NCBI GenBank assembly: GCA_003864495.1
Contig: ML133365.1
Location: forward strand, 1,061,856 to 1,125,855
Reading direction: 5' to 3'
DNA: 64,000 nt
DNA from: Nemopilema nomurai
Lineage: Eukaryota > Cnidaria > Scyphozoa > Rhizostomeae > Rhizostomatidae
Shown: in pieces, positions 35,000 to 62,105 of the stretch
Numbering within the stretch: the first letter of the stretch is position 1
Layout of the letters: every line of letters begins with the position of its first letter
Notes under the pieces: model-generated
Seen by the model: the letters and a program-made list of their open reading frames with translations, nothing else
Database searches by the model: none
What the model was told of the DNA's origin: nothing
Position numbers and translations under genes: made by a program

Positions 35000-35205
35000 A
35001 GGACAAATCCGGTCAAGAATTTTTTTTCTCTATTCCATACATTTACAGTACGCAGAGTTTGATTTATTTTGTAGAAATCACGTATGGGTTATATTAATGG
35101 TTGAAAATCGCGTTGAAAGGTCCGAGTTTTATCAAAATATTGCCTAAAAACCGCGTTAGTAAAAAAGCCTGGCACTAGTTAACTCGTGACGTAAACTGAG
35201 TCAGA
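35000..35205. repeat. Left terminal inverted-repeat region of the Kolobok-type element
   Basis: The left end runs from AGGACAAATCCGG at 35000 to about 35205. Matching blocks with the right end are separated by diverged sequence: the outer 15 bases, AAAACCGCG near 35148, CCTGGCACTAG and GTGACGTAAACTGAGTCA. Presumed transposase-binding region. Confidence 0.75.
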
Positions 35206-35290
35206 CATTTTTGGTCGCTAGGTCTGTTGTTAGTTGTTAGGTAACAAACCACAGCTACCGGATAGGCCTTAAAAGTTGATGATACTAAAA

Positions 35291-38200
35291 ATGCCGAGAA
35301 GATGCGTTGTTTATGGTTGTGGAGAGTCAGCTTCTGCATTGAAAGGTGTGTCGGTTCACATTATCCCTTTTTTGACGACAAAAGGCCGATTGCAGTCAAC
35401 AGACGAAAGCGGTGGATTGACTTTGTCCAGAGAACGAGAAAGAAGTGGTTGGCAACGAAAACATCGGCAATCTGTTCCCGGCATTTCCATCCAAATGTTT
35501 TTGAACAGTATTTGGCTTAGTCTGATACCCTCTTAAACTTTCAAGGCTCGTTTTTGCGGACCTTGCGACGTGATGAGCACGGAATAAGTTCCTTTCCGTC
35601 CATTTATCCTGAAGAAAGCACTGACGCGTCGGCTTCATCGGAGACGATGCCACAAAGTAGGCCCAGTAATCGCGCAAATTGACAGGTAAGGATGTTATCA
35701 ACGCTAATATTATGCTCTTGTTGACTACAAGTTAATTTTTTTATTCTTGCACTTTTCTCCTCAGCATTAAGACTTGGGATTTCTAAAAAGGATGTTTCAT
35801 TTTTAGATTATCCGTGAAGCTTTATGTGGTTCAAATGCGCAATCGACCAGTGCTTGTGGCCACCGTAGATCGGAATCCGTAGTAAAAAGTCCGAGAGAAG
35901 AAGATCGATCGCAGAGTTTTGAAGATGATAATAATTTCAACGATATCAACCAGAAGAGCTGCAAGTAAGTATTCAACAATCAGGTACATTGGAAGCACTT
36001 AAAAGGCGCACTGCATACACTTTGATACTTTTAAAAAAAATTCATTCAGAGGTAAAATTTTGAAAAAAGAAAGTTTAACAAAAGTTGGGAAGCGTACATC
36101 TAGTAGCATAGCAAGGGGGCGGATACCCGCATGGCAACAAATATTGTTGAGAAAGGGAGTTTTCTGGTGTGCCAAAAGGTATGGACTCCCAACCCCATTT
36201 GTACCCTCACTCGACTTGCCTTCCTCCAAATCTTACCAACATGACTACGTTACTGTGCACATGCTCCTGATAATAAACATATTTTGATTTATCAACTATT
36301 TAACATTCACTCCAGCCATAGACTCCCATGTAGACTAGAAGAAAGACAGTTTGCACAAAAATATAAGATGCTAATTGTTTAATTTGAATTAGCAATTTGC
36401 TATTGTGTTCAGCCTTAAAATTTAAGCATCCTTTTTTATCTCATAAAAAATTTTCTTCCAATGACAGAATTTCTTTCTGCCATAGTTTAAAGAGGTTTCA
36501 ACTCAAATGGATCAGTGTGTTGGTTGCATACATCTGTCTTCTGAGAACAACCATTTGAAAAACTTATGGATTGGTGCAAAGCACAAACTTGCTGCTGAAA
36601 AAGCGAGATTTCAAAGCTCCAAAGAAAACTTGGTAAACAGCCATATTTTAGTTAAGAAACAATGTATATTGGAATTTCCTAGTGGGTTAAAAAACTGCAG
36701 CACAAAAAAAGAATGTGTACAAAAACAGGTTCCCTGATTTTAACACTATATATTAGTTTTACCTACATATGCAAAGAGAATTTGCTATACAATTTATTGT
36801 ATTCTTACTGCCAAGTATTAGAGGCAAGGATGTTGTGGTGGGGGTGCTTGGTGCTCAACCCCTGTGTTAAAATGTGATGAGATTACAAAGGGGCTCAGTC
36901 ATCCTTAAATAAGCAGAGCCTGCCTCTAGATATTAAGGTGGCATCCCTTGGGAAAGTCCAAAAAGCTGATTTGTTCTTGTTGCCACTGAGCTAATCCCAT
37001 TAAAGGTTGACTTCAGGAACAGAAAACATCTTTATAAAAATAGCCCAAATATTAATTCCTTGTAAATATATCATAGTCTTGTCAGTGATTTAAATATATA
37101 TCTTTCGCAGAAAAATTTCAAGATAATGAGAAAAGTCAAGAAGAGGAAATTTGGGAAGATTTGGTTGAAGCAAGGGAGACTATGGATAATGATGATGGAG
37201 ACAATGATATGGATAATGATTTTGATGATGATGATGGGAATGATGTTGAGGATGATGATTATAGTATCGAGGATGAAAATGAATGCGTAACAGAACTTGA
37301 TGATACAATCACTAGCAGGTATTTATCAACTCTAATATGATTGACAATTCTACCTTAATTGAACTTGTAATTCTGATATAAGGAAAATATTAATCACCAT
37401 ATAAAACCCTGAAATGTGGAGCAAACTGCAGCCTTGTGTTAACCTGGATATTAAAATGTGGATGTGACTTTAAAGTAACATCTACAGAAAATATTTCAAA
37501 ATATTTAAACATATTTTAATGATTTTCAGCCCAAAAGAAAGTTGGTCCAATGATGTTCGAACAGAGCCAAAGTTCATTGTTTTTCTCTCTCAACTTCTAC
37601 TTTTATTTCGTATCTGCCCCTCATGCAAAGCAGATGGTGTCCTAACAGAGCAAAGAACAATTGGCACATTAATAGAAATTGTATCTTTCTGTGCAAATCC
37701 AAAGTGCCCAAAACCAGAGGTCACATGGAGAAGTCAACCAGACTTACCAGGAACAAGGATCCCAGCAAGGAATTTTCTTCTCTCTTTTGCAATTCTTGTC
37801 GCTGGTGCATCCGCAACTAAGATTAGGACTGTCTTTGGCCACATGGGACTTGCTTGCATATCACTCGCAACATACTATACTCATCAGAAGGTATGTAAAA
37901 CTTGCTGATCATGCCTAGTAACAAATTTTAGCAAATATTAACGAATTTAAACATCTATTTTCAAAAAAGATGTTTTAATATACTGCCATTTATATGGTTA
38001 TTATATTAAGTTATGCAATATCCGGTTACAGCCGCACAAAATGTTGCTTAAAAACTTGTGACTGTAAACAGAGTGTCACTGTAAATGGAGCTAAATTAAA
38101 TAGTTTTACATATTTTGGTTTAAATTTTGTGTGACTGTAACCAGTAGTGTGCCTTTGAGCAGTGATTGTAAAGTAATTCGACTGTACAGACATGAACAAG

Positions 38201-41198
38201 TAGCCAAAACAAAGTCTTTTATTGCCAACAACATTAATTTTTATAGTATTTGTTTGCCTGTGCATGTTTTGCTTTAGATTTCACGGGACAATAAAATTGC
38301 TGTTTCCTTTTTAAATATTGCCTACTGTATCAAAAGATTGCAATATTCCAGGTAAAGAGCATTTCAAAATAATTATTTATTCCATTGTTTGCATGACCTA
38401 GGGTATGCAGTAGAACTTATACAATATCCTTTCTTTTAGGAGAAGCTGTTCCCTTCTGTCTATCTTCACTGGAAACAGTATCAACAGAAGCTGATAACGG
38501 ACATTAACAGCCTTGGAGAACAACTAATTATAACTGGTGATGCACGACATGATAGTATGGGTCATAGTGCTAAGTATGGTGTATACAGTGTATTTTGTTG
38601 CAACAAACCATCAATTACACACTTTGATCTTGTCCAGGTAAGCACGTCTAAACATTACTTAGTAGTTTCGATAAGTCCTTTTCACCATATTGTTGTTAGG
38701 AGAATTGATTTTTATATACCATGCAATACTAGTTGCAGTTTTACTTGTAAGCCTTGGTGTAGCCCATAAAGAATTGTTAAGGCCTCTACTGCATTTGCCT
38801 TCACAGTGTGATAAAAGACTCTCTCTATAAAATCTGACACAACTGTTTAACTATGCTTGATAACCTTGCATCAAAGGCACACTTTCAAGTGATTGCTTTT
38901 TATCAGTAGCTGATGTATGAAAATAAATCTACCAATTCAACTTTTTATAGCGTAATGAGGTAGATAGCAGCTTAGCTATGGAGTACGAAGGGTTTCAACG
39001 AAGCATGACATTCTTTGCTACATTGCCTTGTGGAATATCCACATTTGTATCAGACAGACACTGCTCTGTTGCAAAGCACATGAGAGAAAAGCTTCCTACT
39101 GTGAAACATTACTTTGATCTCTGGCATATAAAAAAAAGTAAGTTTTCATCTGATTAGAAAAAATTAATAATTGATGCCTATATTTAAAAAAAATAATGTA
39201 TGCAAGCTTCATCTTTAGCAATTCTTTTCATTGCATTTATCTGCTTTTCTTTAGAGGTTCGTAAAATTTTGACAAAGATATCAAAGCTAAAGGGTTGCGA
39301 AGTATTGGCAGAGTGGATTCAACCATGTGTGAACCATTTGCATTGGAGTGCAACAACAACGCCAAGTGGAGATGGCAACGTTATTCTTGCAAAATTTAGG
39401 TCCTTTCTTGGGCACATCATCGATCAGCATAAAGATCTTGAAAATCCTCTTTTTGATAAATGTGCACATGGAGAAAATATTCACAACGCAAATGGCTTAG
39501 GAAAGGTTTGCATTATTTGTATAAAGTACCCTGCATTCTTTTCTTTTTATTACTGTTGATCAAGTGTACAATTTTCAGGGCAAGGAAGCATTCTGTAAAT
39601 TAGTTCATGAAAGTTTCTCATAGACTGAATTCTAACATAACTTAAAATACTTGATTTATTATAATTTTTTAAGGAAAAAATTACATACTGCACACTTATG
39701 TGGACTCAGCTTTAGGGTATTTCATTCAGTCGAAAAATCTTAAAAAAATGATCTTGATTTTGCATTTATTGTCTCCTCACAGATTCTGATGAATTTGAAT
39801 CACTCAGTTCTGCCCTCAGTAATAAGCTACTGGAAAAAGGCATCCAACAAGCTTCACCATTGGCCCAGACTAGCTGCTTAGAAGGTTTCCACTCAGTGGT
39901 TAATCATTTTTGCCCAAAAATGATCGGTTTCTCGTATGTTGGAATGTTTTGCAGGTAAACTGGATTATTAGACTAAAAATTTCCATATCTTCTTGTGCAA
40001 AAGACAACTTAGTGAGGCTGTGTTAATGAACAATATCAACTTTTTGGCTTATTTACTTTTTAACAGTCAATAAGGAAGCTGCTTCTTTGCATCATATTTA
40101 AAAATGACCTGTACACGATTTAATATCTTTAGGATGCGGATACACTTCATGCATTGATTTGATTCTAATTCAGATCAACAGCTTGCAGCATTTAGCTTTT
40201 AAAGAGAAACTGACTAAAAGCACAATTGCTTTTATGCCTACCATTTGATTTTGTTTCCTAACAAATAGCATATCAATTTCTTTTCAGACATGCATTGGCT
40301 GTTCTACATTTCAACTACAATTTGGACAGGAAGTCAAAAGGAGTGATGACGGTTCAGCTCAATTAGCTGTCCATTACCCGAAGTTCAAAAATGGGGAGGC
40401 TACCATAAAAAATATTAGAGTTCATCAGAATTTTGGTGAATATTTGTTTTTCTTTTTCTCATTAATTACTCTAGTACAAATAAAGTAGTTGACAGTTTCT
40501 AAAGTATTCTAGTTCAAATAAGGTTTGTGTGCTTGCCTAATGTGGCTGTTGATGTTCAACTATCCTCTCATATTTTATATCAGAATATGTGGAGGAGCTT
40601 TTTGCCACAACAATGAAAAGCATTGATGAAGGACAATTGACTGCAGCCATGAACAAACTGAAAGAGGCTACACCACCCCCGCTTTGTGCAGGTTTTGACA
40701 AAGAAAATAGGGAAGAGGCAATTTAAAAACAGGAGCAGCGAAAGCGGATGGTTACACAAGAAGTGCCTGCAACATCTTCAGGTAAAATGGAAAAGGTTCA
40801 TAATGCACAATGTTGAAAACTATGTCAACCCATATAATCACATATATTGAAAGAATTATTGAAAGTGACTGCCTGAACAGTATGTAACAATAGATGCAAT
40901 GGGAACCAAATTTAACTGCTGGCAAATATTTTATGTGAAAAGTTGAATGTTTCATTTTGCATACAGTTAAAGAGTTTCATATGTTTCAAATCATATGTTT
41001 CAATTTGCATATTGTGCAAATGAAAGATTATCCAACTATAGTGTATTTAATGCACTTCTTAACATTTCAGGTTCAGCTGATGTTGTGGGACCTCTTAAAA
41101 AGAAAGCACCTCATTGCACAGCTTGCAAAAGACCAATGAAAGGACACAGATTATTACAAGACTGTCCAAAAAATTTAGAGCAATCAGATTTATTATAA
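35291..41198 (+). pseudogene. Kolobok-type transposase with N-terminal THAP domain, multi-exon
   Basis: Exons by GT-AG sites: 35291-35685 (THAP: RRCVVYGCGE, WIDFVQRTRKKW, ICSRHFHPNVF), 35807-35964, 36486-36632, 37111-37318 (very acidic), 37530-37890 (EPKFIVFLSQLLLLF, CPSCK), 38440-38637 (GDARHDSMGHSAKYGVYS, catalytic Asp), 38951-39137 (STFVSDRHCSVAKHM, second Asp), 39255-39505, 39783-39954 (TSCLEGFHS, Glu), 40288 to about 40433, 40584-40781, and 41071-41198 (CTACKRPMKGH with DCPKN, a zinc-knuckle-like tail). The DDE motifs match what I know of Kolobok. Defects: a frameshift near 35380, a stop at 35518-35520, a frameshift near 40345 and a stop near 40723. It would cut and paste the element at TTAA. 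The stop is 66 bp from the convergent gene's stop. Confidence 0.8.
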
Positions 41199-41263
41199 CT
41201 TACCATAAATAGAGTCTAAGCAGCCCAACTCCTTTTTGACACCCTTACTAGCGATAGTCCAGT

Positions 41264-42676
41264 CTACTGTAACACGTTTTCATCACGTTCTGCATATCCT
41301 GTTGCTCTCTCATTTCTTAAATTAAATTTTCTTCTGATTGCATTATAAGCACATGCAGGCAGTGGCACACGCTTTTTCCCCAACTTTCCATGAATCAGCC
41401 TTGTAAAAGCTCTATAGGCAACAGCTCGCAAAAATCTAAAAAAGAAAAATAACTGCTAACAAGGAGGAAAGATTAAGAAAAATAAGAAATGAATCATCAG
41501 CATGCAGTGCCATAACAACTGACAAGTTGTGGCAATAAATTTTCTTCAAAAAAGATGGAAGAACAAAGTTTTCCCTAGTGAAAATAAATTCTTTGTTAGA
41601 AATTTGATAAATTTTAATTTCAAAACTTTGATATTTATATTATACATCTTGACAAATAATGAAAATTGATGTTTTACCAGTTCGACATAAAGTGCTTCAT
41701 GTCGTGCAGGTAGAGCTGTAAAGGCGTTTGTTGACAAATATATTCTCGCATGTTTGCCTATTGATATTGATCTTTTTAAAATTCATAAAAAGCCTTGACA
41801 ATCACTTTTAAGCACACTAAAAGACCTAATTCTTAAATTTGATGCATTGAACTGCTAACTTATATTAGTACCTCAAATAGAGAAGAAGAAATTGATTACA
41901 AACATTTTTTCTGATCCTAGATTTCGGTAGCGTGTTTTTCGAGTTGTTTTATACTGGTCAGCCAGCAACTCTAATGTCCATTGATTCAGGCAACTTGGTT
42001 CAAATCCTGGATGACCAGTGACGCATTCAGGGGCTTCCCAAGTTCTTCTAGGACCCGTTCTCTATGTATTGCCTCAACACATTCCTCATTTTTTTTGCAG
42101 CACTTGCATTCTTTGGCATTTTCAAAAAGTGCATTGTCACATTGACCGCATCTGCACCTAGAAATGAATCCGAAAATAAAGTTATGCAAAGATGTGTTAA
42201 AGTTCTATCAATTTATTAAATGAGATGCTTTTATCAGATTCAAATCCAATCAAATTTATCACTGTTATTTTCCTTCATGCAAGGAAATACATGTAATAAA
42301 TGTCTCAACCTCTAGCCAGGCAGCGTCAGCAAGAGGGGCCTAGTAGGCGAAGGACCTTTGGCCTAATCACAAAACGTTGAACAACCTACCAGGTATTTAA
42401 CGGCTCCGTTCCATCCAGACGGCTAGTAAGTATTCTTTGTCTGTCTTCGTCCTCTCTGCGCCGTCGGTTATAGTTTCGAAGCCATTCCTCATCTGCTAAT
42501 GGTTCACCCATATAGGGACCCTCTAAATCGGCATCGTTACCGCCAGTTGCTTGGCCTAGTCTTTGCTCTACGCCTTGAGCTATATCGTTCGGGTCTTCCA
42601 CATCAAGCTCGAATTGAGATGTGTCACTAAGATCTTGATCCTGGTAAGTTTCTGAAGAATCGCTGATATCCGACAT
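41264..42676 (-). pseudogene. P2X7 intracellular (ballast)-domain-like protein carried by the Kolobok-type element
   Basis: Minus-strand gene with three exons: 42676-42390, about 42157-41903 and 41435-41264. Exon 1 starts MSDISDSSETY, is acidic and includes GPYMGEPLADEEW. A phase-2 intron splits the Trp codon of WCRCGQC. Exon 2 has KECKCCKK and, after a one-base shift near 42026, PECVTGHPGFEPSCLNQW. Exon 3 reads FLRAVAYRAF, GKLGKKRVPLPACAYNAIRR and KFNL. The order WCxCGxC, CC, C(I/V)TxHPxF, RxVAYR, PAC...IR is that of the P2RX7_C family (zinc-binding C-terminal domain of P2X7). No transmembrane segment or channel part is present. The role in the transposon is unknown; DNA or protein binding is a guess. 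Confidence 0.7.
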
Positions 42677-42756
42677 GCTTTCCCGATTTCGAAGTGAGAT
42701 GAAACAAGTTTTTGAGAGTACGGCGATCAGCGGATCGTCAAGTACGAATTGATGAC

Positions 42757-42955
42757 ATATTATGACTCAGTTTACGTCACGACTTAACTAGTTCCAGGTC
42801 TTGTTCGCCGCGCGGTTTTCAGGTAGGGGTAGACGATTTTAAACCCCCCAAATCATACGTTGTGTTTCCCAATGACGAAAACTATAATCACCATTAAAAT
42901 GTAAATACTTTAAAGTGGCAGATATTCAAAAATGGCGATAGGCCATATTTGACCT
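42757..42955. repeat. Right terminal inverted-repeat region of the Kolobok-type element
   Basis: Reverse complement of the left end in blocks: TGACTCAGTTTACGTCAC at about 42761-42780, CTAGTTCCAGG, CGCGGTTTTC, and the end GGCCATATTTGACCT just before TTAA at 42956. It includes the possible promoter side of the minus-strand gene, which starts at 42676. Confidence 0.75.
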
Positions 42956-42959
42956 TTAA

Positions 42960-44390
42960 TGAAAGCAGATATTCCTATTCATGTGTGATGTGCTTTTCCC
43001 ATTTTGATTCTTGTCCCATTTTTCAATTTTTCAATGAAAGGCGCCTTTTCCTGTTGATTCTGAGCCCCTCCTGTCTTTTCAGCACCCCAGGGTCAACGAG
43101 AAATAACTTTTTTTCTTTTTCAATTTAAGTATAGTGGTAAAACATATTATATATAAAGCAACGGAAATAGCAAGGTTAACTAACGATTTTATTTGATTGG
43201 CTCATAAGATGTTCTTTTTACGTAATCATACTGCCAAGGCAATTCTCCTTGTGCTGACTGAAAGTAGTCTGCGACTTTCTGTCGAAAACCTTGGGCGGAT
43301 TCTACTATGATTATTAGAACCAAGTTGCTTTATGTCTGAAAGAGAGCCAGACTCTTGTTACTTCAAATCTCCATGTTCCGCGATGAAGAATACCATGGGC
43401 ATCTTCATAATAAATGTAACCTGGGGGCAGTAAATTCTTCCGTACGCTTTTTGACTGTCATCGTGCTTTTTTAGCCAGCTATATAGGGTGTGCAGCATCT
43501 CAAGAAAGTCCAGAGAAATTGGAGGTTGGTCTGCGCTTAAATAAATAGAAACCAACCACTTGATTGCATTTTCTAAAAAAATTCTCTTCATAGAAACTTT
43601 TGCTATCAAAGCGCGATGAGCTTGAAGACAAGCATGCTAAGGGAATGGTTCATTGTCACCCCAAACCACCCAAAGCAACATGACGCGTACAATAGTGGTG
43701 CCTTCTGTATGGAGGTTTGTGTTTTATAGATGCATTTGGCGTTGATCATATAAAATAACGATTTGACAATATATTGTAATCAATACAATGATGACAATAA
43801 TAATTATAACGATGATGATAACAGACAACAACATTGTTATGAATATGGTTAACAAGAATTTATGGAGATTTATTACGAAATTACGTTTGATAGTAAATGA
43901 TAGGACAATATATGTTGGCAAATGTGAAATATTCTTGGGTGAAAATATTTTTGTGTGAGGATGCAAACCATCCAATCTTTATCACATTCCTTATCACAGT
44001 TATCAGCTCATTTAAAACTTTTCCTGCATATTTTAATAACAATAGTGTTGCAGGTGATATTATTAAATTCGAATTTAATGTTAATTATGCTCGTTCGTTC
44101 TTTAAAAGTATTATTTCAGCTTGCTGAGATTTTGCTGAGAGACTAGATTTGGCAATTCAAAAACCAAGTCGGAAGATTTAATCGCATATCGCAAGACGAT
44201 TGGTCAACTGCTGCTCTCTGACTCAGGTTATTAGAATTTCTCTGCAGTTTTTTTTAAAATGGTATCAATAAAGAAAAACAATTTTTTTATCATAGTGTTC
44301 ATATTAAAGAAAGATGAACTCTACCCCGTCCACTCAAAAATGTGCCACTATAGTGTTAAGGATGATGTGTAAAATAAAAAAATGTTCACT
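42960..44390. other. No firm gene; one minus-strand open frame of 83 codons
   Basis: About 1.4 kb between the Kolobok-type element and the next transposon debris. The minus-strand frame 43609-43358 (LENAIKWLVSIYLSADQPP, then LEMLHTLYSWLKKHDD) looks helical and could be a fragment of a real protein, but I do not recognise it. The stretch near 43795-43830 is simple AT-rich (TAATAATTATAACGATGATG). Confidence 0.4.
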
Positions 44391-45333
44391 GTCGATGCTT
44401 TCACTTGGGCTGGGTTCAAAAATCATTCCGAGAGGCAAATGAGATGATATTTGAATGCTAAGCCTGCATCCAACAGTCGTCAATTCTACTTGAATCAATC
44501 GATGAAAAAAATTAAGAACCACGTGCAAGCTCATCTCCAAAGGTCAATAAGCATCAAATTAAGAAAGGAAAAGGCCCGAGAGAGCTGCCAAAAACAATGT
44601 ATGGATTTCATCTCCTTTCCTCCAATAACAAAGCAAGAAGGTGCCAGCATTGCCGCCAACAGACAGGTCGAGAAGAAGCAGCCAGAAAACTTAATGGTCG
44701 AAAAATACAGCACATTCAAGGTTCCAGCCAAAAAAGGGCTACGAAAGTCTACCAGAAATAACTACTTCTGCATCAATTTGGGTTGCATTTAGGAAGAGTT
44801 CGATAGCTTTCCGTGGGACAAATTAATAATTGAAGACGCAATTAAAGAAAAATTAACGGTAAACAATGTGAAATGGTTAGAAAAATTAGGTATTGACTTT
44901 TCAAAGCAATACTAGCAACAGCAGATGAAAACTCTAGTACCTTTCATCCAATCACCTTCGCACTTCTAAAGAAAAGAATGTAATTTAAACGACTATTAGC
45001 AGTATACTCCTTTCATCTGCAGAAGTGACGCAGTATTTCTCATTCTCTATTGATTGATAGTCGCAAGAATTACAATCTTTTCTTCAGAAAAAGATTCTAT
45101 GAATTCTGTGCAGCAGCAATGATTTAAAGAAGAGTTTTGGTTCAATTTTCAGAACGCATTTTTACAGTACTGTTATTATGCTCACCCTGAAATAGAAACC
45201 ATTTGCAAAAAGTGTATTCAGTAACTCAGATCTCTGTTATGAACACTGAAAAACAGGTAACAAATGGAAAATGAAAAGGAAATATGCAAGCTGATTATGG
45301 GAAATTATCTTGAAATTTTCTTAGAACTTTGAC
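44391..45333 (+). repeat. Third, diverged copy of the tail of the 6.2-kb unit
   Basis: From about 44391 (TCGATGCTTTCACTTGGGC) to about 45333 (TTGAAATTTTCTTAGAAC) the sequence aligns to 13108-14074 with many substitutions and a few indels. It covers the zinc-finger tail exon; here KKQPENLMVEKYSTFKVP and KLIIEDAIKEKL are visible in different frames, and the last block stays open longer than in the units (through NNVKWLEKLGI). The array and the rest of the unit are absent. This shows the tail exists as an independent, older dispersed repeat. Confidence 0.85.
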
Positions 45334-48300
45334 AACACAGAGCCTGAATATTCTTTCTGAATATTCCTGATATCCTCACTTGAGTTTTTTTCATTATTAA
45401 TCGCGTAGGCAACTCAGAATGGACTGCAAAGCTTGTTCACTGTGACAAGGGTTTTAAGGTTAAGAGTGCAAAGATATGTGCTGTGCACTTCAAAAAGGGA
45501 TGTATCTTTATAGGTATGGATTTTATTCAAGTATTTCTTGTCCATTTGATAGTGCAAAAAACGAGTCAAATGCAGACTTTACCGGTCAACAGGCTTGCTA
45601 CTTTGCATGTATCTTTAGCGGACCCTCATTTTGCCTATCAACCAAGATACTCTTGGAATAAATTTTATCCATTTTTGTTTTTGACATAGGAATCTTTACC
45701 TCCTCACGTATCAATTATTTTCATTTAGGAAAAAAACAAAATCCCATGTCCGCGTAAATAAAAACATATATGAAGATGCCTACAACCTGCATCTTGAGAA
45801 AACTCCAAAACTCAATGTCCTACAGCCTGTAGGATATCTTGAGAAAACTCCAAAACTCAATTTCCAAAATTTTCTGTCCAGATAAATCTCTCCACATCCT
45901 TCTCACCGAATATGATTATTTTAAGATTTTGAAAATTTACCAAACCTAAAGGATACCAAACCTACTGACTTTTTTCTGTTCTAGATAAGAATGGGATCCC
46001 AGAGTTGAAGGAGAACAGTTTGCCAACTGAACTTCTTCCTCAAAAAAGCATTGTAACACCTAAACCAACACCCAGAGGAGAGTTGCATATTTAAAGCCAC
46101 AAGAGCCATTAAAAGCGATAAAGTATGCTTGTTTAGACGATATTGAAAAGGATATTCGCTTTATCGAAGACCCATGGAAAATTATTAGGAAATGTGATGA
46201 ATACTGGCATGTTGTCCAATTATCAGAAAATGCGGACATTGACAAGTAAAAATTGACAGTTCCATTAGTTATGAAATTGAGTGTCAAGGGGTTAAGCTGC
46301 CAGTGGATCATTCTATATAAAAAAGAAGTTAAGAAATTTGCAAAGGTGCAGACTACAATGGGTTTTGAATGACACAGATAGTTTTCAAGGATGTCCTGGA
46401 GTAGTGAAACCTGAGCTACAAAAGTTTGGACAACTTCCGACTACAAGGTCTATTGTCCCTTTCTATTTACATTCGAGATCTAAGCTACAGTATTCAGACA
46501 AATGTGGTGCAGCTGAAACAGTTGATGAACTGTCTGATGATGAAAGATACCCTTGTGATGTAGTTACAAATGTTCGGTCTTCAGCCTGCGACTTGCTGGT
46601 GCACAATGAAAGATCATGTTTAAACAGTACGGGAATTGAAATAAGCTTTCACCAAAGAATGAGAAAAGAATAGGAGACCATCAAAATCTAATTTCAATGA
46701 AAGCACCTTTGCACAAAGTGGCAAAATCAAAGCTTGTTAAGGCAATAAAGGTTGCTAGAGAAAAAGAAAAATATCTTAATCAAGAAATTTTGTCATTGAA
46801 AGAACAAATTCACCAGGTTGGAGTATTTCTAGAGAAAGAAGTGCATGAAGATTGTAGAGGAATAATTGAAGGTAAAGTAGATGAAATGGAGGAAGGGTCA
46901 TTTGAGAAATTGTTTTGGAAGCAACAAATTGAATCTTTTAGATGTAATCTAAGTTCTTTCAGATGGCACCCCATGATGATTCGCTTTGCCCTTCATTTGC
47001 ACTTGAGATCTCCTTCTGCATACAATGCTTTGAGGGAAAGCTTCCTTGTGAGAGAACTCTTGAGGGTTTATTCCAATGTAATCCACCCTGAAGCTGGATT
47101 TAGTAAGGAAGTCCTAGATGACTTGAAAAAGATGTTGCAAAGCTAAAACATGACATGCAGCATTATGTTGCCTCCTTTTTGATGAAGTATCAATCAAAGA
47201 GATGACCTTGTGTAGGATAGCACCACAACTGGTGAACTGATAGGATTCATCAATTTAGGTGACAACATGGATGAATTCATTGATAGCTTTAGGGAGGGAG
47301 AGCCTTCAACCTGTGTTGCTACACATGCACTTGTTTTTGATTGTTGGTTTTGCCTCAGATCTGAGGTAGACAATTGGATATCTTGGCACAAGGGGAGCAA
47401 CAGCTGATATCCTTTATCCATTGATTTGGAAAGCAATAGATATCTTGAAATTTATGTTGGTTTCAAAGTTATTTTGATGGTTTCAGATAAAGCAAGTCCA
47501 AACCAAAGATTTTACAGAATCCACAGAAATGACAAGGATCCTGCTGTTTACAGAGCTGTTAATATTTTTGCTCCTGAGGGGCATCGGTATTTTTTCCCTT
47601 TTTCAGATGCACCCCATCTCCTGAAAACTATCAGAAACAACCTTCCAAACTCTGGTTAAGGTTTGAAGACAAGATACCTCTGGAACAATGGAAAGCATTT
47701 ACTTTGGAGCTACATTGTCAAATGCTACTTGCAAGACAGCCATGGGAAGTCAAGAAAATTGCCAAAAATAACAAGAGATCACATTTACTTGAACAGCTAT
47801 TCCAAATTGAGAGTCAATTTAGCAGCCCAAGTCCTGAGCGAAACAATGTCAAATGTAACGAGAGTGTATTGTGATGATGAGGCCTCAGAAACAGCAAATT
47901 TTATAGGGCTTCTGGACAAGTTCTTTGACTGTTTCAATACACGTTCTTTAAAAGAAGCTCAGTATAAGAGGAAGCCATTCTTGGCCCAATTTACAAATCT
48001 TAATGATCCAAGATTTGAATCTCTGCAGTCCACATTCCAGGGCTATCTGAAAGATTGAAAAGATGCAACTGAAAAGAGAGATTTCTCAAAATCAGAGAGA
48101 GAGCTCAGATGTTTTTATCACCTCAGACCTATGAGGGTACACAGAAGTCAGTTTATGCATTGATAGAAACCACAAGATACTTGTTGTTGGCTCTAGCTAT
48201 GTCAAGCAAGCTATGTCTAGCTCCTGTCAAGCAAATCCAGTCAAGCCCTTTGGAGGAGCACTTTGGTCGACATAGGGCTCTTGCAAGACGCTCTTCAAAC

Positions 48301-49073: not shown

Positions 49074-49172
49074 TAAGAAACGAAACAAGGCATTACAGTT
49101 ACGAGCAGCCCTTTCAAAAAAAGTGAGGTACCCAAAAGCAAAGAAATTGGACATTAGAGAAACAAATCAATA

Positions 49173-50951: not shown

Positions 50952-51011
50952 AAGGTACAGTAAGTTCTGCGCTAGTGTAGTATCGTACCTCTCCATGATC
51001 CACAGGTCCTA

Positions 51012-51432: not shown

Positions 51433-52216
51433 TACAATCCTGGCCAAAAGGTTACTGGACTGGAGAAAAAAACCACTAAGATTGCAATTTTATCCTGAAA
51501 ATGGTATAGAAACCCCCCACCCCTGCAGCAATGTTGGTTTTTTGGAAAATACCAAAGTATCAGTTACCGAAATGAGTAGAAATAAGCATCTCAACATTGC
51601 TTGTGGGGGGTGGGGATTGTATCTTTTAAAAAAGGCAGCAATTTGCCAGCCAGTCCACTATCTTTTGGCCAGGATTGTCCGATTTTGAAGGAAAATGAAA
51701 ATCCATCATAGTGGTTTATTGGGTATCGGAAAGGGCTATTAGGGGTCTAGAAATGGGCGCCCAATCCTAAAAAAACTAGGAAGTCGGTCTTTTAGAGTAA
51801 TATGTGTTAAATATTCATAAAAATTAAAAAATTCAAAATGCTGCACCTAACGTAGTAAATCTGAGGACGCGGCATGTTTGCCTACATTAATAAGATTTAT
51901 AGTTCTCTGCGCGGTGGGTACATAATTATCATGGGAAATATAGATGTTGGGGTCCTGCCTAGTCAATTAGCTATAAATCATTGGTTGGTATGGGATAAAT
52001 AGCGTGCACAACGCGGTTTGCTTCAGACTTTGCTATATGGCACTATGACAAGAGAATACCTCCGACGAGAGAGAGAATGAAATGATGGCTGTAAGGTGGA
52101 AAATATTCGAGTTTACCCATCGGATACCGGCAGATGAACAAAAAAACATTCCGAGTTGTCCTCGCTGCTTTGCAGAACTGATAATGAGCGGTAGCGATGT
52201 GTAATTTCCAAATTGT

Positions 52217-52458
52217 CACGAGTTACCAACGAGTTACCAACGAGTCACCAACGAGTTACCATAAAGGGTTACCATCTCTAATAGTGGCTTTATATGGGAA
52301 AACCACGAGTTACCATGACTTTTTATATAAATATATATATATTCTATTTGATAACGAAAGTGGTAACTCGTTGGTATCTCGTTCACATCCATACTGAGCT
52401 TTGTAAATGTATAATGTAACTCGTTCGGTAACTCGTTGGTAACTCGTGGTAACTCGTA
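52217..52458. repeat. GAGTTACCAAC foldback cluster, copy 1 (within B1)
   Basis: Four or more direct copies of ACGAGTTACCA (about 11-bp period) at the left are mirrored by GGTAACTCGT copies at the right, around an AT-rich centre (TATATAAATATATATAT). It forms a long imperfect palindrome of about 242 bp; it may itself be a small foldback element inserted in B before B was duplicated. Confidence 0.85.
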
Positions 52459-53589
52459 ATCATTTTCCTATTACGGTACAAACGGCTTCTTTTACCAGCA
52501 TTACCAGCATATACATTAGTGCATGCGTATAGTTGGTTTACTGTTAAAATTCCAAATTTTGATTTTATACATAGTTCTAGAAGACACATAAACACATGTA
52601 GTTGTAGTTCCAGTTTATTTATTTATATCACCTATAAACCCAAAAAATCCCGCCCCCCCCCTCGATGTGAAAATCTTTTCAAACCTCAACACTTGCATTC
52701 AAGACCACTCGATATTAACAAATAGAGGTAAAAGCAAACATGCCGACAACATTTCACAGTATCTGAGTGTGTATTGGCCCAAATCTTTGCATGCCCCTTT
52801 TTGCCGCTACATAGGACAATCCTGGCCAAAAGGTTAGTGGACTGGAGAAAAAAACCACTAAGATTGCAATTTTATCCTGAAAATGGTATAGAAACCCCCC
52901 ACCCCTGCAGCAATGTTGGTTTTTTGGAAAATACCAAAGTATCAGTTACCGAAATGAGTAGAAATAAGCATCTCAACATTGCTTGTGGGGGGTGGGGATG
53001 TATCTTTTAAAAAAGGCGGCAATTTGCCAGCCAGTCCACTATCTTTTGGCCAGGATTGTCCGATTTTGAAGGAAAATGAAAATCCATCATAGCGGTTTAT
53101 TGGGTATCGGAAAGGGCTATTAGGGGTCTAGAAATGGGCGCCCAATCCTAAAAAACTAGGAAGTCGGTCTTTTAGAGTAATATGTGTTAAATCTTCATGA
53201 AAATTAAAAATTCAAAATGCTGCACCTACGTAGTAAATCTGAGGACGCGGCATGTTTGCCTACATTAATAAGATTTATAGTTCTCTGCGCGGTGGGTACA
53301 TAATTATCATGGGAAATATAGATGTTGGGGTCCTGCCTAGTCAATTAGCTATAAATCATTGGTTGGTATGGGATAAATAGCGTGCACAACGCGTTTGCTT
53401 CAGACTTTGCTATTTGGCACTATGACAGAGAATACCTCCGACGAGAGAGAGAATGAATGATGGCTGTAAGGTGGAAATATTCGAGTTTACCCATCGATAC
53501 CGGCAGATGAACAAAAAAACATTCCGAGTTGTCCTCGCTGCTTTGCAGAACTGATAATGAGCGGTAGCGATGTGTAATTTCCAAATTGT

Positions 53590-53830
53590 CACGAGTTACC
53601 AACGAGTTACCAACGAGTCACCAACGAGTTACCATAAAGGGTTACCATCTCTAATAGTGGCTTTATATGGGAAAACCACGAGTTACCATGACTTTTTATA
53701 TAAATATATATATATTCTATTTGATAACGAAAGTGGTAACTCGTTGGTATCTCGTTCACATCCATACTGAGCTTTGTAAATGTATAATGTAACTCGTTCG
53801 GTAACTCGTTGGTAACTCGTGGTAACTCGT
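53590..53830. repeat. GAGTTACCAAC foldback cluster, copy 2 (within B2)
   Basis: Same structure and practically the same sequence as 52217-52458, duplicated along with segment B. Confidence 0.85.
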
Positions 53831-55361
53831 AATCATTTTCCTATTACGGTACCATCGGCTTCTTTTACCAGCACTTTTACCAGCATTATACATTAGTGCA
53901 TGCGTATGGTTGGATTTACTGTTCAAAATTCCAAATTTTGATTTTTATACATAGTTCTAGAAGACACATAAACACATGATAGTTGTCGTTCCAGTTTATT
54001 TATTTATATCACCTATAAACCCAAAAAAATCCCGCCCCCCCCCCCCCCTCGATTGTGAAAATCTTTTCAACCTCAACACTTGCATTCAAGACACTCGAAT
54101 ATTAACAAATAGAGGTAAAAGCAAACATGCCGACAACATTTCACAGTATCTGAGTGTGTATTGGCCCAAATCTTTGCATGCCCCTTTTTGCCGCTACATA
54201 GGACAATCCTGGCCAAAAGGTTACTGGACTGGAGAAAAAAACCACTAAGATTGCAATTTTATCCTGAAAATGGTATAGAAACCCCCCACCCCTGCAGCAA
54301 TGTTGGTTTTTTGGAAAATACCAAAGTATCAGTTACCGAAATGAGTAGAAATAAGCATCTCAACATTGCTTGTGGGGGGTGGGGATTGTATCTTTTAAAA
54401 AAGGCAGCAATTTGCCAGCCAGTCCACTATCTTTTGGCCAGGATTGTAGGACCTGTGGATCATGGAGAGGTACGGTACTGCACTAGAGCCGTAAGTCCCA
54501 GCCTAAAGGAAACTCATATTTTCATATCAGGTTGTTTAGTTTCTGTCAGGTTACCCTGGGTACCAGAGCCGCAAAAATTAAAATTAAAAAATAATGAGAG
54601 CTGCGGAGGCGAAGGAGAGAGAAGAGAGAAGAAGAAAGCGGCTCTGCTTCCATCAATTGCAAACCTCCTTCTCGCGTGGAACATGCGGATTCACCGCTGA
54701 TCACAATCGCTAATTGGGTAATCACCCCAATCACAATCTCTAATCGAGTGTCGGTGGGAGCTTGAAAATAGAATGGACTGTAATGGCGGAAAATACTCCG
54801 GTCAAAGTTTACTGCCCATTTACAGCTGAAAATAATACCTCCTCGTGTCTGTTATGTGGATTCAATTTTGCGTTAAGTGGAACGAGACCGGCATATAGGA
54901 TCTTTGGGCAGCTTAAAAGTTCGTCAGAAAGCGATTTCCTTGAAAAAATACGACAGGTCTTGCACGACGATTTCTTTGCGTCGCAATCGGTTCTTCCCTC
55001 TTCTGTATCGTGCAAGAGTTGTCACAGTAAAGTCTACAGATTGGCAAAGAATTTGAAAGAAATAGAGTATTTTAGAGACGCAGTGAAATGTAGGCTGGGT
55101 AACGTCTTCGAAACCATTACAACAGAAAACTCACCACCTGGAAATGTGCGAGTAAAAAGATGTTCGAAGTCACCACACCAAAGTGGCCCTCCTTTGAAAA
55201 TGCTACAAACAATATTGCCGGCTGAAGAAGATGCAAAAGCTACCAAAAGCAAATTCGTAAGAGAACTAATAACTGTTGGTAGCAATAATCTAGAATGTCT
55301 GCCATTCAAAAACGCAGAAATCCCTGATGCAACAAGAGGGCGAAATTTAACGTCTGTTGAT

Positions 55362-56282
55362 GTGAGTAGTACCAAGTTTTTACTGAGAATTTCTTACACT
55401 GGTTTTCTGTTATTGTTTGAACATCAGATGTTTATACTATCAGTTCATCTTTCAAAAAAATGTTTTTTGTTTTCCCCATCCACACAAAATATACAGACAT
55501 TTTTCAAGTCTTAATGTTCTTATAAATGTGTGGTTCTTCTGAGCTCAAAAGTATTCTTAAATTATTATTGAGCAACACAAATTTGGTATTAGTCTAAAGA
55601 TAGAGTTATGCTACTGTGTTTCTTTTCATGAAAACATTTTGAGAAATGAAATATACTAGCACAATACAAACTTGTGGATTGAAGCTGAAACTATTGGTCT
55701 TATTTGCTCAAACTATTCAGATGAATAAAAAGACTAACTGTCATCTAGCTATTGTTTTTTATTAATTCTTAGATTCACAAATTTTACCAGTACTCTTTTA
55801 ATTTTATTCATATAAGATGCAAATTGCTTTTTCAGTACAAATAGATTGAAATGTAAAACAATATCTTTATAGACACAGAAGGAATGTTGTCATGTCACAC
55901 TGTGGTTTTATTCGGGAGGGTTGCTGTCATTTTATAAAGTTCAGTTCCGTTTCATTTTTTAAAATAGACAACATACAATACTCAACATTCAGGTTAAATC
56001 AATACATTAAACACAACAATCAATACAAATAGCAAAATCATAACTAAATCTATATATTTTAGATAAAATACAAACAATAAATCATTCAGTACAAATGAGG
56101 AGTTGTATGAAGGAAATTTATCGAGGAGGAGCTCTCAGTATATCAAGGAGAGGGCACCCCCTGTGATTCTTTTTCACATCATTAGAATTTATAAACTGAT
56201 TGATTGTTTTACAAATGATTTAACTGTTATCATGCAAGTAACTAACAAACAAACATTGACACACAATTTTGTTTTTATAAAG
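55362..56282. other. Intron 1 of the DUF6589-like gene
   Basis: About 920 bp between a GTGAGT donor and an acceptor at ATAAAG before VRINYLSGSK. AT-rich; no inserted gene seen. The open frames running into it from exon 1 and before exon 2 lack motifs. Confidence 0.5.
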
Positions 56283-57295
56283 GTACGTATAAATTACCTG
56301 TCAGGCTCAAAGCAAATGTGTGTTAAGTCAGAGATCATGTCACCTATTATAATTGCACTTGTTACTGGTGATATCAAATTCGTTATAAAGAAGATAGAAA
56401 AACACAAGGATTTGAAACCATTACTTTTTAAATGGGTTGAGGACAAAGTTGTTGATGAGGTTTCAACTGTTGTGGCTGTAAAAAATCCAAGCTTGCTGTC
56501 TAAGACCAATTGTGAAGACCTAGTTAAACTAAAAAATGAAGCAGTCATTGGTGAAATGCAAAAACGAGCCCCTTTGCTGTGTCATGTATTAAAAGCCGCA
56601 GTTACATCAAGGCAGAGAAAAAAGAAAATCAAAGAAGGACAAGAGCACAAAATATGTTTGCATGGTCTTGCAATGGTGTATGCAATTTTAATGAGAATGA
56701 GAAGCCCAACACTAAGTGCTTTGGCATATCGCATATCTATGGTTTTACATCATAGTGGAGCTAAGAAAAGAGTAAGTGTGAATATTACTAAGATTTTAAC
56801 AGGATCTTTTTATGTTCTTTTTATTGTAACAAAGAAATTTAAGTTCACCCTTGTTTTCAAGCCTGCAATATTTTTAAATGTTGATTTAAGAGTAAATGTT
56901 TTTGATAGCAAAAATACTGAATAACATAACAGGGGTGGATTTTAAAGCAAATAGGGAAATCGACACGCCAGTTTCAAAATGATTATTTGAAGAAAAAAAG
57001 GAAAATATTTCTCTTTTGCCTAAATCAGCTGGGGGATGTTTCTAAAAAGTTTCTTAAATTTTATACAATCTGGTTCTAAAGTTTGTTAAAATGATGCGTG
57101 TTTAATAACCTATCCTATTGCACCAAACTATTGCGTTACTTTTTTCATTTTGAACTTGGATACAAATAAGCACAAATAGATTGACAGGATTAAATAATAA
57201 TAACTTATGGATAGCTCTCAGCAGTTGCATACTATTAATTAAATGGGTGAATAATATCTCCAGTATAATTTAGTACTTATTAGATGTATAAAATG

Positions 57296-58645
57296 TTACC
57301 AGTCATCTTCAACATCTAACCCTTCTATACCATCAGACAAATCACTTTTGTCACTTCCAGATGTACTATCTGCATCTGAATTTGGGCAAAAGAGCCACTC
57401 TGGTAAGGACAAACTCTGTACTTCTTCATTCCTGTCTCTAGCAGCATTTTGTGCCTTGCTTACTTCGATATCTGTTATATCACCAAAGATATCATGCACT
57501 ATCAGAACTATTTCTCCAGCATGATGCTCTTTGTAAATGGGAGTGTGGCTAAGAATATAGTCAATGCTTGTTATAAAAGGTAAGTGGCCTTGAAGCTCCT
57601 TGGTGACGCTCTTTGATATGCCAACAAAAAATTGCTTATCAAAAAATGATGTAACATTGGCATACGTTCTATTTTGTTGCGATACATAATCTAAGAATAC
57701 TTCCTTAAAAAGGTGCTTCTCTGGCTTGGATACAGTTCGCACTTCTCCTTGCCTTGAAACTTTTAGCATACCCTCTTCTAAGTTCAAAAAAGGCATTGCA
57801 CACATACCACTACCTTTACAGTCACAGTGTGCATGACACCAGGAACAACAATCATGTTTCACTTCTGGAAGCTTTACATCTTGTGTGACAAAGCTTTTGT
57901 AAAGTGCAACACGAAGACAAGATTCTGTTTCTGTTGCATATGCCTTCATCTCTGCTGTTGCTTTAGCCAACTGTCGTCCTGAATAATATAAAATTGCAGT
58001 AGCTGCTGCTCCATCACGTCCTGCTCTTCCAATCCCCTGAATATAGTCTATGACTTCATATGGAGCTCCATAATGAATTACATATCTCAGGTCACTGATG
58101 TCAACACCCATCACAAGTGAGGTTGTTGCAACAACTACCCTGCATGAACCATCAACATCAGACAATTGTGCAAGCAACATCAGAGTCATTTTGTGGTACA
58201 TGCCAATAAGCATGTTATTTGTGGACTTTTCTCTTGATAAAATGTCAAAAGCTTCTCTACCAAGTTCCTCCTTTAAAAATAAAAAAACTTTAGAAACATT
58301 CTCAATGCTTTGGCAATAGATGATAGTCTTTTCAAAATTCCTTTACTGTTTTCGTAAACCTTCAACTATCCATTCTAGTAAGGATGGGTTGAGTGTGGGG
58401 CATTTTACTTTCATAAGATGAATATTTAGCCTGTTTGGACTGGCTCTTATCATTGTGAAAGATTGCATTGAAAGAGACTTCACTATTTTCTTCTCTAAGT
58501 CTTTATCAGCAGTTGCAGTTAATGCCAACATGTTCACATTTGGAAGCAAGGTTCTCAGCATTCCAAGCTTTGAGTAGGAATCTCGAAAAGCCTTTCTGAC
58601 TACTTTTAGACCTCTCTTTCTGTGATCTGTGGGCAAATCACACCT
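57296..58645 (-). pseudogene. RecQ-like helicase, C-terminal half, inside an intron on the opposite strand
   Basis: After an acceptor (CTTTTCAG) at 58646 a single minus-strand frame runs to 57296 with one stop at 58343-58345. It reads KLGMLRTLLPNVNMLALTAT (motif III region), IYCQSIENVSKVF (motif IV region), GMYHKMT, VVVATTSLVMGVDISDLR (motif V), YIQGIGRAGRDG (motif VI), then a Cys/His cluster HDCCSWCHAHCDCKGSGMC and an acidic C-terminus. These are RecQ-family 3'-5' DNA helicase motifs. The Walker A (GKS/T) and DEAH exons are missing: no minus-strand candidate occurs before the plus-strand exon at 58729. It lies wholly within intron 2 (56771-58728) of the DUF6589-like gene. Confidence 0.82.
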
Positions 58646-59685
58646 GAAAAGACATATTACTTTATCATTTGAAAGTAATAAATACAAGAAATAAATAGCT
58701 CAGTGTGATTTATTGTACTGTTTTACAGGCCTATCGTTGTTTGTCACCATATGGTGTATGCCTAAGCAGACAAAGAGTCATTACAAAGTTGCAAGCTGCT
58801 GGTACAAGTCGTGACGAAGCCATAGTTCAGAGAAAAGAAGCTATCCAGACTCTCTACACCAAGGAAAAAACAATAGATGAAGAGTTACAAATGCAGTTAG
58901 CAAAACTGTCAGGTGTGCCAGACATTGATATTAAGTTCTTTGAAGAATCATCAATTCCACATGTTCATGTTGCATCGGCAAGTAAGCAGCATGCTAGACA
59001 AAAAGCTATCTGCAAGAAGTCAAGTGATGCAGGTTCCATGGCAAACTCTGGTACTGAACATGATAAAGCAGCAATGGCAGCTATTGATGCAGAGTTTAGC
59101 TTATTTCAAAAAATTGAAGCAAATGAGATGTGCAAGCTTGATACTCTAATAGAGCAGAAAATGCACATCCAGAGGTCAATGCAAGAAATGCTTTACCAAG
59201 TTATTGGTGACAATCTTGATTTATACATAAAAGTGAAACACATGACAAGTGAAAATCAAAACAAGTAAATTTCTTTAATTTTTATTCAAAGTTTTTATCT
59301 CAAACTGTAAAAACTCTATTTTCAGACTTAATTTATTTCCATTTTTTCTTGTATTCTTTGTAAAGCTCCTTTTCCCTGAAATAAACATGTTTCTTACGTG
59401 ATTAAATCAGATGTTGACGGTCTGATTAGTTTTAGTTTTTACATGTACCAAACAAACTTAAACTCATGGAAACTACATAAAGAATGTACCTATTTCACGG
59501 CTAGGTTATTTGGAGTATAGAACAGGATGGTTCTAAGTTAATAATCTAATTTTTAGGCTTAGTTGAATTATCAGGCAAGTTTTGATGTTAAAAGTGTTGT
59601 ATCAAAGTTGTTTGAATTATTTTATGCCTGACTGTTTTGTTTATCAAGGCCAATATTTCTTGATCTTGATATTTTTTCTGATTAG

Positions 59686-61133
59686 TTCAGCAGTTCATGT
59701 ATGGCTATATTGAAAGACATTGAAAAGCTATCCTCAGATGCCCAAACAAGCTGCCTCGAGGGCTTCCATTCCTTGCTGAATCACTGGCATCCCAAGATGA
59801 CCCATTTTTCTTGGCTTGGAACAAATTGCAGGTATATGTTTTGTTTTCAACTTGTACTGTAAAAGCTTGCTACAGCATCTTGAGCTGTTGATTTGTGGAA
59901 GCAGCTCTTACAATTCGAAATAGATAAAACAAACATAGCTGACTGTGGCTAAATTACATTTAGTTCATCTGGATACAACTTGGTGCTGTATCTACTGTAT
60001 ATGGTATATTACACCCCTGTTTCATTTCTGTTACCTGCTGAAAACTTTTAAACATGAGGATCAAAAGGTACAGGTATGGCAGAAGCAATCAACAGAATCA
60101 AGATTTTCTATGTAAGCAAAGAGAAATCACTTTTATTTGTCACTATAAATAAAATATCTGTTTTCTTTGATACTTTTAGACATGCATTGGCTGCCATGCA
60201 TTTCAATGAAAATATTCAGAGGGAAAGAAAAAGGACTACTGATGGTGAACTATCCTACAATGTGCTTTACCCAAAGTTCAAGCTTGGAGAAGAAGTAGTG
60301 CGTGTTGTTGCTGTTCCTCCAACTTATAGTAAGGCACTTTTGTATTTATTGTTTTAAGTGATTGCTTCCCAGTAGACTTCACAGGCTCTACGAATTAAAA
60401 TTTAAAGGTTGGTTTAAGTTTGAGGATAATTTTTTGCTCTTAACAGGTTATGTTAACGATATCAAAGACATTATGCTGTCAAAATCAATACAAGACCTGA
60501 AAGAAGCATTTGATAATTTTACCAGAGATATCCCAGAATCACTGACAAGTCAGTTCACGGAACGACGTACAAAAGCTGATGCAATCAGGTACCAGAATGA
60601 AAGAAAGTCTATACAGACTCCATATTATCCAACAAGTAGGTTTTGATCATCATCACAATTCCCGATTTGAATTAATGTTCTTTTACCAGGGTTAAAGGGC
60701 TATGAAGTCTTGCAGGGGGGAAAATTCATGATTTAAGCAGTATACTGAACAGGGTGGACTAAGCAAGTTCTGATTACCTCACCTACAGTCTCCAATTCAA
60801 TTTTTTGCTTTTGAAGTATGCTAATATTTGCTGTTGAGGTATGCCTTGTTACAGTCTGCATGGGCCATTTGTGTAAAGTTTCAACTCTGTGAATTTATCT
60901 TGTTCACTAGGACAATTACTTGTCAATGAAATGTTCAAGCAACCCAAAATTTCTACTTCTACCTAATTATGTTTATAGTTGAACAACAAGAAGAGCTGCA
61001 GTCATCAGCTTCTCCTGCCATCATTCCAAAAAAGACAAGAGCCCCACCCTCTTGTAAGAAATGCAAGAAGCCAAAGTTGGGTCATCCAAGAGACCACTGT
61101 CCAGAGGCAACAGTTGCCCTTCCATCTGACTGA
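59686..61133 (+). CDS. Second Kolobok-type transposase, 3' half only (four exons)
   Basis: Exons 59686-59831 (KLSSDAQTSCLEGFHSLLNH, the catalytic Glu region), 60180-60328 (RHALAAMHFNENIQRERKRT, YPKFK), 60447-60635 (GYVNDIKDIMLSKSI, FTRDIPESLTSQF) and 60979-61133 (SCKKCKKPKLGHPRDHCPE, zinc-knuckle-like tail). Each matches the corresponding exon of the first transposase (AQTSCLEGFHS; RHALAVLHFN...YPKFK; CTACKRPMKGH) at the same intron positions, but the sequences are clearly diverged, so this is a different subfamily rather than a recent copy. The two catalytic Asp exons and the THAP exon are absent. The four exons have no frame errors, unlike the first gene. The stop is 124 bp from the convergent gene's stop. 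Confidence 0.75.
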
Positions 61134-61256
61134 TTGGATTGATATTTTGCGTTTTTTTATTCATAATGTTATATATATACTGTTTCCAGCAACTTTTTTC
61201 ATTATATAAAAATAACAACATGCAGTGACGAATGGAATGTACCTACCTTTTGGAGG

Positions 61257-62105
61257 TCACTGCCTTTCTTGAGCAGAGGCATACCCTATAGCTTCTGCTA
61301 CTGGATATTTTTCCCTTATATGGTTGTAGATGCATGCTGGAAGGGGTCTTGTGTTGTCCCAGCCCAGATAACCAAAAATCCACCTTACTACCCAACGATA
61401 TGCAACTGCCCTCAAATATCTAATGATAAATAATAAAAATGTCAGGATTTAATTGCAGGATTAAACATATTAAAGTATGCTTCGCTTGTAATGGAAAATC
61501 CATCTTGTTGGTAACAGTGCATTGGAAAAAAGATACAAGAGCACACATACTGGTTTTTGCTTTGTCCTGCTTTTCTTTTGTATAGTCGGCCATTCTTGTC
61601 TTTCAATAAGGGGCCAGTCATCATCAGTACCTTCATTTGTCACTGCAGTGTAATCTTCGTGTTGGATTATGCATGAAATGTCCTCTCTACCTTCAAAAGT
61701 CAATTTGCCATTAGCTTCAGCAACTTCTGTGCAGCAACGAAATTCTAGGGCACCAACCAAACGATCCGCTTTACACTTTCCACAGGAACACCTGCGTTAA
61801 ATACAACGATAAAATATTTGATGTGTCTGAGTAATACAGTAATTTCAGTTCCCACCTCATGACACACCTTCCCAGTCCGGAAAGGGCCTAAACTTACCAG
61901 GACAGTTTTTAATTTGAAAAACAAGAAGGGAACTTCCCTTGAAACGAAATAATTAGGTATAAAATATCAAAATGCAATATCACATACCAGTCTTCCACAA
62001 TTATTCGTTGTTCCTGCCTGGCAGCCAAAACGGCGTGAGGAATCCCGTCTTTATCTTCTTCGAAATGAAATGTTGGTTGCCCAGCAATGTATATTCCTTG
62101 AACAA
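61257..62105 (-). pseudogene. Second P2X7 intracellular (ballast)-domain-like gene
   Basis: Exons on minus: about 62105-61988 (IAGQPTFHFEEDKDGIPHAV, LAARQEQRIIVEDW), 61791-61551 (CSCGKCKAD, EFRCCTEV, CIIQHEDYTAVTN; then, after a one-base shift near 61640, GPLLKDKNGRLYKRKAGQ) and 61419-61257 (YLRAVAYRWVVRWIFGYLGW, RPLPACIYNHIREKYPV). The intron after exon 1 splits the Trp codon of WCSCGKC exactly as in the first element, confirming both splice models. No start codon was found for exon 1, so a further 5' exon or a frame error is likely. Family P2RX7_C by motif order. Confidence 0.7.

Follow-up and report, generated by a model that had tools for sequence, protein, structure and literature searches.

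What is a gene for the cytoplasmic ballast domain of the P2X7 receptor doing beside a transposase in Nemopilema nomurai? The question is raised by a window (the whole stretch analysed) of 64,000 nt from this animal (GCA_003864495.1, contig ML133365.1:1,061,856-1,125,855, forward strand), in which a plus-strand Kolobok transposase gene twice meets a minus-strand gene carrying the ballast domain (Pfam P2RX7_C, PF20478). In the sections covered of Kojima and Bao (2022; PMC9587614), Kolobok elements of the Kol0 lineage are described as encoding a protein, KolX, that is similar to P2X7 residues 476-595, and P2X7 is proposed to be a fusion with KolX. Our analysis gives good confidence that each pair is a copy of a Kol0-type Kolobok element in which a THAP/ribonuclease H-type transposase and KolX lie tail to tail, and that KolX would be an element-encoded transposition factor. 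The core idea, namely the pairing and the derivation of the P2X7 tail from the element, was already published in 2022 (PMC9587614) and the present result is a rediscovery with added detail. Beyond that paper, a search of the literature, as far as its texts were covered, found no publication linking the P2X7 ballast with transposons or KolX.

Two convergent gene pairs in the window

The first pair lies within a TTAA-bounded, though decayed, transposon (element 1; Table 1). Its transposase, the exon edges of which were read by eye, begins with a THAP domain (36.3 bits against a cut-off of 23.9, with an X at the frame change), displays the motifs GDARHD, SDRH, DLWH and CLEGFH in translation and possesses a C-terminal CxxC...GH...C knuckle. 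In an alignment comprising 22 of the 59 transposase matches, residues D101, D168, W191-H192, C264 and E316 are invariant in the 22 relatives and D189 is present in at least 90%. The transposase stop codon (41196-41198, plus strand) is separated by 65 nt from that of the opposing gene (41264-41266, minus strand). When its exons are joined, with an X at the frame change, the opposing gene matches P2RX7_C at 27.3 bits (cut-off 23.5); taken singly, two pieces score 12.1 and 15.5 bits and a third gives no match. Element 1 is decayed: the reading frame shifts within its THAP exon and within exon 2 of its KolX, and in-frame stops occur late in the transposase. The window's copies are decayed and probably inactive.

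The boundaries of element 1 were located from its ends. A repeat scan revealed an inverted pair of 61 nt (35143-35203 and 42763-42823; 82% complementarity, 7.56 kb of separation), and alignment outward from these cores reaches TTAA on both sides; of the 16 bases that follow TTAA, 5 are mismatched. By itself this outer-end match is modest, its score being equalled by 3 of 1000 dinucleotide shuffles in a control covering the outer ends of element 1 only. The left end is backed by L046, an incomplete copy on contig C2 with 96-98% identity to the window, whose alignment begins exactly at 34996 and reaches 38805 with a gap, while the flank outside its TTAA differs. Thus, the left end is independent of the outer inverted match.

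The second pair is a fragment consisting of 3' transposase exons and the ballast gene, and it retains only the glutamate part of the catalytic motifs. The stops (61131-61133 and 61257-61259) are 123 nt apart. Its exon-joined KolX scores 38.9 bits with P2RX7_C and the separate pieces 13.9 and 26.7 bits; among all pieces of the window only its last exon passes the cut-off. Across 53001-59706 no transposase query matched, including pieces from the relatives L039 and L040. The ends of the pair were likewise not found: the end pattern typical of L040 occurs once in the window against 1.2 matches expected by chance. The convergent orientation given in the preliminary description therefore stands for both pairs, as does the P2RX7_C identity of both minus-strand genes, whereas its spacings of 66 and 124 nt become 65 and 123 and its second transposase is reduced to 3' exons.

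Two neighbours flank the second pair. A piggyBac-type transposase open reading frame (ORF) occupies 62759-63802 on the minus strand (DDE_Tnp_1_7, 194 bits), its near end about 650 bp from KolX. Upstream, the ORFs at 54783-59268 (plus strand) resemble a gene of several exons, inside which a RecQ-like helicase lies on the opposite strand (57296-58699, minus strand; Helicase_C 54 bits); the region is perhaps another transposon, and we presume AcademH to be possible kin of this gene. That the ballast gene belongs to the piggyBac-like neighbour, which shares its strand and lies so close, or to the RecQ-carrying gene is highly improbable. The KolX of the second pair is related to that of L040, in which a Kolobok transposase and KolX are held together between TTAA ends. 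Furthermore, queries from RecQ and the 54783 gene gave 0/5 matches at loci with Kolobok and KolX, and the piggyBac query gave no match at L039-L045. Assignment of this KolX to either neighbour was rejected on the grounds of the L040 enclosure and the queries without matches.

Of the seven zinc cysteines of the PF20478 domain, those of WCxCxxC...CC and a PxC cysteine are seen in KolX, which is classed by its fold with the P2X7 ballast. Unlike the P2X7 receptor, KolX has no channel, as the preliminary description had noted: all eight P2X_receptor matches in the genome lie at C84:1149205-1156611, and C84 is without a P2RX7_C match in the exon-by-exon profile search. On the ballast similarity of both exon-joined genes, we provisionally assign the window elements to Kol0.

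The pair within Kolobok elements across the genome

The survey covers one animal genome, that of the window itself (G000, 212.9 Mb). An exon-by-exon profile search with P2RX7_C returned 44 matches, all above cut-off, and the KolX DNA of element 1 returned 14, two of which stand for element 1 and its near-identical C53 copy. Thirty-six loci were read (L003-L038), representing 6 of the 12 non-self DNA matches and 30 of the 44 profile matches; longer stretches of the places in L014, L010, L017 and L007 are L043, L044, L045 and L042, respectively.

Nearly half of the loci read (17/36: L020-L023, L025-L036 and L038) are copies of a single family of miniature inverted-repeat transposable elements (MITEs) of 1.57 kb. 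In 16 of the 17, TTAA(A/G)GGAGAA is present at both ends (L029 has no right one) with a ballast exon between them. The MITE looks like an internally deleted Kolobok retaining the last KolX exon, because L041, the copy that was read over its whole length, still has a THAP-like beginning, albeit at 20.7 bits, below the THAP cut-off. Of the 19 remaining ballast loci, 17 have a convergent Kolobok transposase within the 1.5-kb flank (15 in the first reading, with the addition of L010 and L012), and L047 is one more locus showing the pair. TTAA ends surround both genes in element 1, L040, L043 and L045, all four with AG ends; membership of the Kolobok superfamily follows from this TTAA target duplication and the 5'-RR ends. 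In this genome, then, it is not the rule for the gene to lie outside the inverted ends or to be missing.

By coordinates alone, a first pass had found a convergent transposase from the list no more than 5 kb away for only 5 of the 44 P2RX7_C matches. This low count arose because the transposase list was hand-thinned, the queries missed other lineages and many matches are MITEs. The notion that ballast matches far from transposases are stand-alone host genes was rejected, 17 of the 36 loci being one MITE family. Among pattern-matching stretches from prokaryote genome contigs (11) and viral contigs (17), none encodes a KolX relative.

Three further observations concern the distribution of these loci. 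For both window pairs, near-identical copies occur in colinear order at C53:1908290-1932982, as either the alternative haplotype or a large duplication. At L037 (C133:2430799), the last KolX exon is followed by a THAP exon on the same strand (29.1 bits), in a rearranged copy or an unusual arrangement. Finally, 89 of 122 hand-thinned transposase places fall on C1, C2, C45, C143 and C133 (5.3% of the assembly). This concentration, possibly a repeat-rich or non-recombining region, is a lead only, given that the queries came from C1 and only some candidates were scored.

Co-divergence and constraint

At the ten loci where both genes are readable, protein distances of transposase and KolX are correlated (Mantel r 0.73), with none of 9,999 permutations as high. 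KolX of L015 and L018 differs at 75% of synonymous and 10% of nonsynonymous sites. Between pair 2 and L040, the ratio of nonsynonymous to synonymous change (dN/dS) is 0.18 in KolX and 0.11 in the transposase, and that of element 1 KolX against L005, L006 and L007 is 0.25-0.29. Other between-family KolX pairs are saturated at synonymous sites (proportions of synonymous and nonsynonymous sites that differ 0.75-0.87 and 0.11-0.45, respectively) and give no usable ratio. Between subfamilies, the KolX protein is thus under constraint. Such a pattern marks a gene needed by the element for spreading, whatever its function. Survey, co-divergence and constraint together bear out the earlier proposal of an old partnership that has been kept.

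Several results weigh against the overall interpretation. The window's own two KolX genes were not listed by the exon-by-exon P2RX7_C search, so the survey is incomplete. Many loci are near-identical (for example L003/L006, L007/L008 and L015-L017/L019) and the counts consequently overstate the number of independent cases. No convergent transposase was present in the 1.5-kb flank read at L011 and L037, and TTAA or inverted ends were not found in the stretches fetched for L039, L042 and L044. Close copies within a family give KolX dN/dS of 0.92 (L003/L006), 0.88 (L009/L013) and, on few changes, 0.38 (L015/L019); the L009/L013 transposase reaches 1.27. Such ratios are expected after insertion but are no proof of function. 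The two loci without a partner in the flank read might suggest that KolX is a host gene captured by chance, with nearby copies arising from shared insertion hot spots. We regard this as very improbable: KolX lies inside TTAA ends in four elements and in 16 of 17 MITE copies, co-diverges with the transposase and remains constrained where synonymous divergence is saturated.

KolX gene structure and the origin of the P2X7 tail

In both window genes a phase-2 intron splits the tryptophan codon (TG|G) of the WCxC motif, as previously described. The intron is also present in L002, L003, L005-L008 and L014-L019; it is no marker of the whole partnership, being missing in 6 of 20 places with a readable motif (L009-L013 and L024). 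Excluded from this count are L001 and L042-L045 (repeats of other places) as well as two spurious pattern matches; L040 was placed in the intron class on the evidence of its exon break, separately from the motif reading.

A tree of 29 KolX and P2X7 sequences splits the intron class from the rest with P2X7 among the latter (support 89/93). It omits 3 of 20 database proteins, and alignment A1 omits one (P0011); the database KolX proteins are ORF calls and hence biased to the intron-less class. L009 and L040 form long branches, making the position of P2X7 beside L009 unsafe. Pairwise similarity of P2X7 amounts to 41-66 bits with L009, L010 and L012 and 21 bits with L024, all intron-less, versus at most 26.3 bits with the intron class, for which element 1 and L007 were not reported among the matches. 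Since P2X7 groups with the intron-less genes in both tree and bit scores, an origin of the vertebrate domain fits that class better than the window's genes. This suggests that the likely donor of the P2X7 domain was a KolX gene without the tryptophan-codon intron, of which the window's genes look like cousins. The preliminary description also suggested a transposon gene as the source of the vertebrate domain; this fits the tree, at moderate support, and had been stated in PMC9587614. The two gene-structure classes are apparently a new point; neither they nor the co-divergence and selection tests were found in the sections covered of that paper.

Comparison with known systems

As far as the sections covered of PMC9587614 describe them, Kol0 elements resemble those of the window in encoding a transposase and a ballast-like protein, in TTAA target and in purine ends; the present survey adds families from one more animal. 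The same sections report accessory proteins in the lineages KolobokP, KolobokH, KolobokD and KolobokE, that of KolobokP on the complementary strand; these are a His-Me nuclease, RecQ, and DnaQ-like and lambda-exonuclease-like nucleases, with no ballast domain. They also mention a few piggyBac families encoding a protein that resembles the C-terminal part of KolX. Frog Kolobok ends such as AGCGATTCTGACATGG with TTAA, given in the part covered of PMC6004289, are close to the L045 end AGTGCCTGTGACATGA. ZCD or Nanor-like proteins (Rump et al. 2020, PMC7016195) possess, as does KolX, a ballast domain without a channel and occur across animals; the string 'transpos' was not found in the main text of that paper. 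Public databases list a stand-alone KolX-like protein of Hydractinia (P0012) under the name 'P2X purinoceptor 7-like'; it is likely a misnamed transposon gene.

The role of KolX

KolX would be a small zinc protein with the fold of the P2X7 cytoplasmic ballast, encoded by the element and serving transposition, most likely as the transposase's companion in the end complex or else as its regulator. It may have been retained because families losing KolX stop spreading. Alternatively, KolX could stand outside the transposition machinery as a regulator or host-facing factor, acting in repression, anti-silencing or expression timing. We consider this possible although clearly the less probable role. 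Antisense control would be possible between convergent genes such as these, whose stops lie 59-498 nt apart in the six pairs that were measured, and Rump et al. (PMC7016195) refer to a suggested role of zebrafish Nanor in transcription. Against the regulator model, the stop-to-stop spacing is not conserved; the present results do not separate the regulator from the machinery model.

A more specific proposal, speculative and improbable, is that KolX might be a guanine-nucleotide-responsive zinc module serving the Kolobok transposase in trans, much as the P element has a built-in GTP-binding domain. The P element transposase requires GTP for pairing, cleavage and strand transfer, according to the part covered of PMC7776569. 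With the P2X7 ballast (PDB 6u9v, 8tr6, 9e3m) KolX has in common the fold, the zinc-cysteine pattern as far as it was assigned and, of the five residues in contact with GDP that Rump et al. (PMC7016195) list, two. Arg546 is kept in 15/16 readable genome rows and 19/19 database rows, and Arg578 in all 17 genome rows and 17/17 database rows (two more are gapped). His547 is kept in four genome rows (L014, L015, L018 and the MITE) and 1/19 database rows, while Arg574 and Lys583 occur in none of the database rows, the only rows checked. Rump et al. likewise found only Arg546 and Arg578 conserved beyond deuterostomes. Under this proposal, the P2X7 ballast would owe its GDP site to transposition machinery and retain it as a relic.

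Other features of the window

Fragmented P-element-like transposase pieces lie at 46640-48055, with a TNP-like GTP-binding domain of 52.6 bits (cut-off 24.8) and a P-element helix-turn-helix of 21.4 bits, below its cut-off. Positions 1-23814 contain 8 kb of a 62-bp tandem array, whose GC skew is strong, and a direct duplication of 9.5 kb (4722-14258 versus 14260-23814, 97.4%) that repeats part of the array. At 51434-54447 are 1.38-kb repeat units about 97.6% alike, a piece of which, by eye, adjoins the L043 element.

Table 1 Coordinates of the two transposase-KolX pairs in the window
Feature	Position	Strand	Basis or detail
Kolobok (Kol0-type) DNA transposon, decayed copy (element 1), 7,964 bp with both TTAA	34996-42959	.	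TTAA and inverted ends
Left end of element 1: TTAA then AGGACAAATCC..., long imperfect inverted repeat	34996-35203	.	conserved core 35143-35203
Right end of element 1: inverted-repeat core 42763-42823 out to TTAA 42956-42959	42763-42959	.	seen in element 1 only
Transposase gene of element 1	35291-41198	+	THAP match, translations, similarity matches
THAP exon of element 1	about 35291-35521	+	frame change inside
Transposase exons of element 1, first four after THAP	about 37531-37893, 38440-38640, 38952-39138, 39255-39508	+
Transposase exons of element 1, last four	about 39782-39956, 40286-40440, 40583-40790, 41070-41198	+
KolX (P2X7-ballast) gene of element 1	41264-42676	-	exon 1 42390-42676; exon 2 from 42157 down, frame change inside; last exon ends 41264
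Second Kolobok transposase, 3' part only	59707-61133	+	from the catalytic-glutamate exon through the zinc knuckle at the C terminus
KolX gene of pair 2	61257-62112	-	exon 1 about 62112-61988; exon 2 from 61791 down; last exon ends 61257

Implications

This genome-wide test in one animal supports the published view that the P2X7 ballast belongs to a transposon-carried, transposon-selected gene. The role of the ballast in P2X7 thereby becomes a testable question about transposition.
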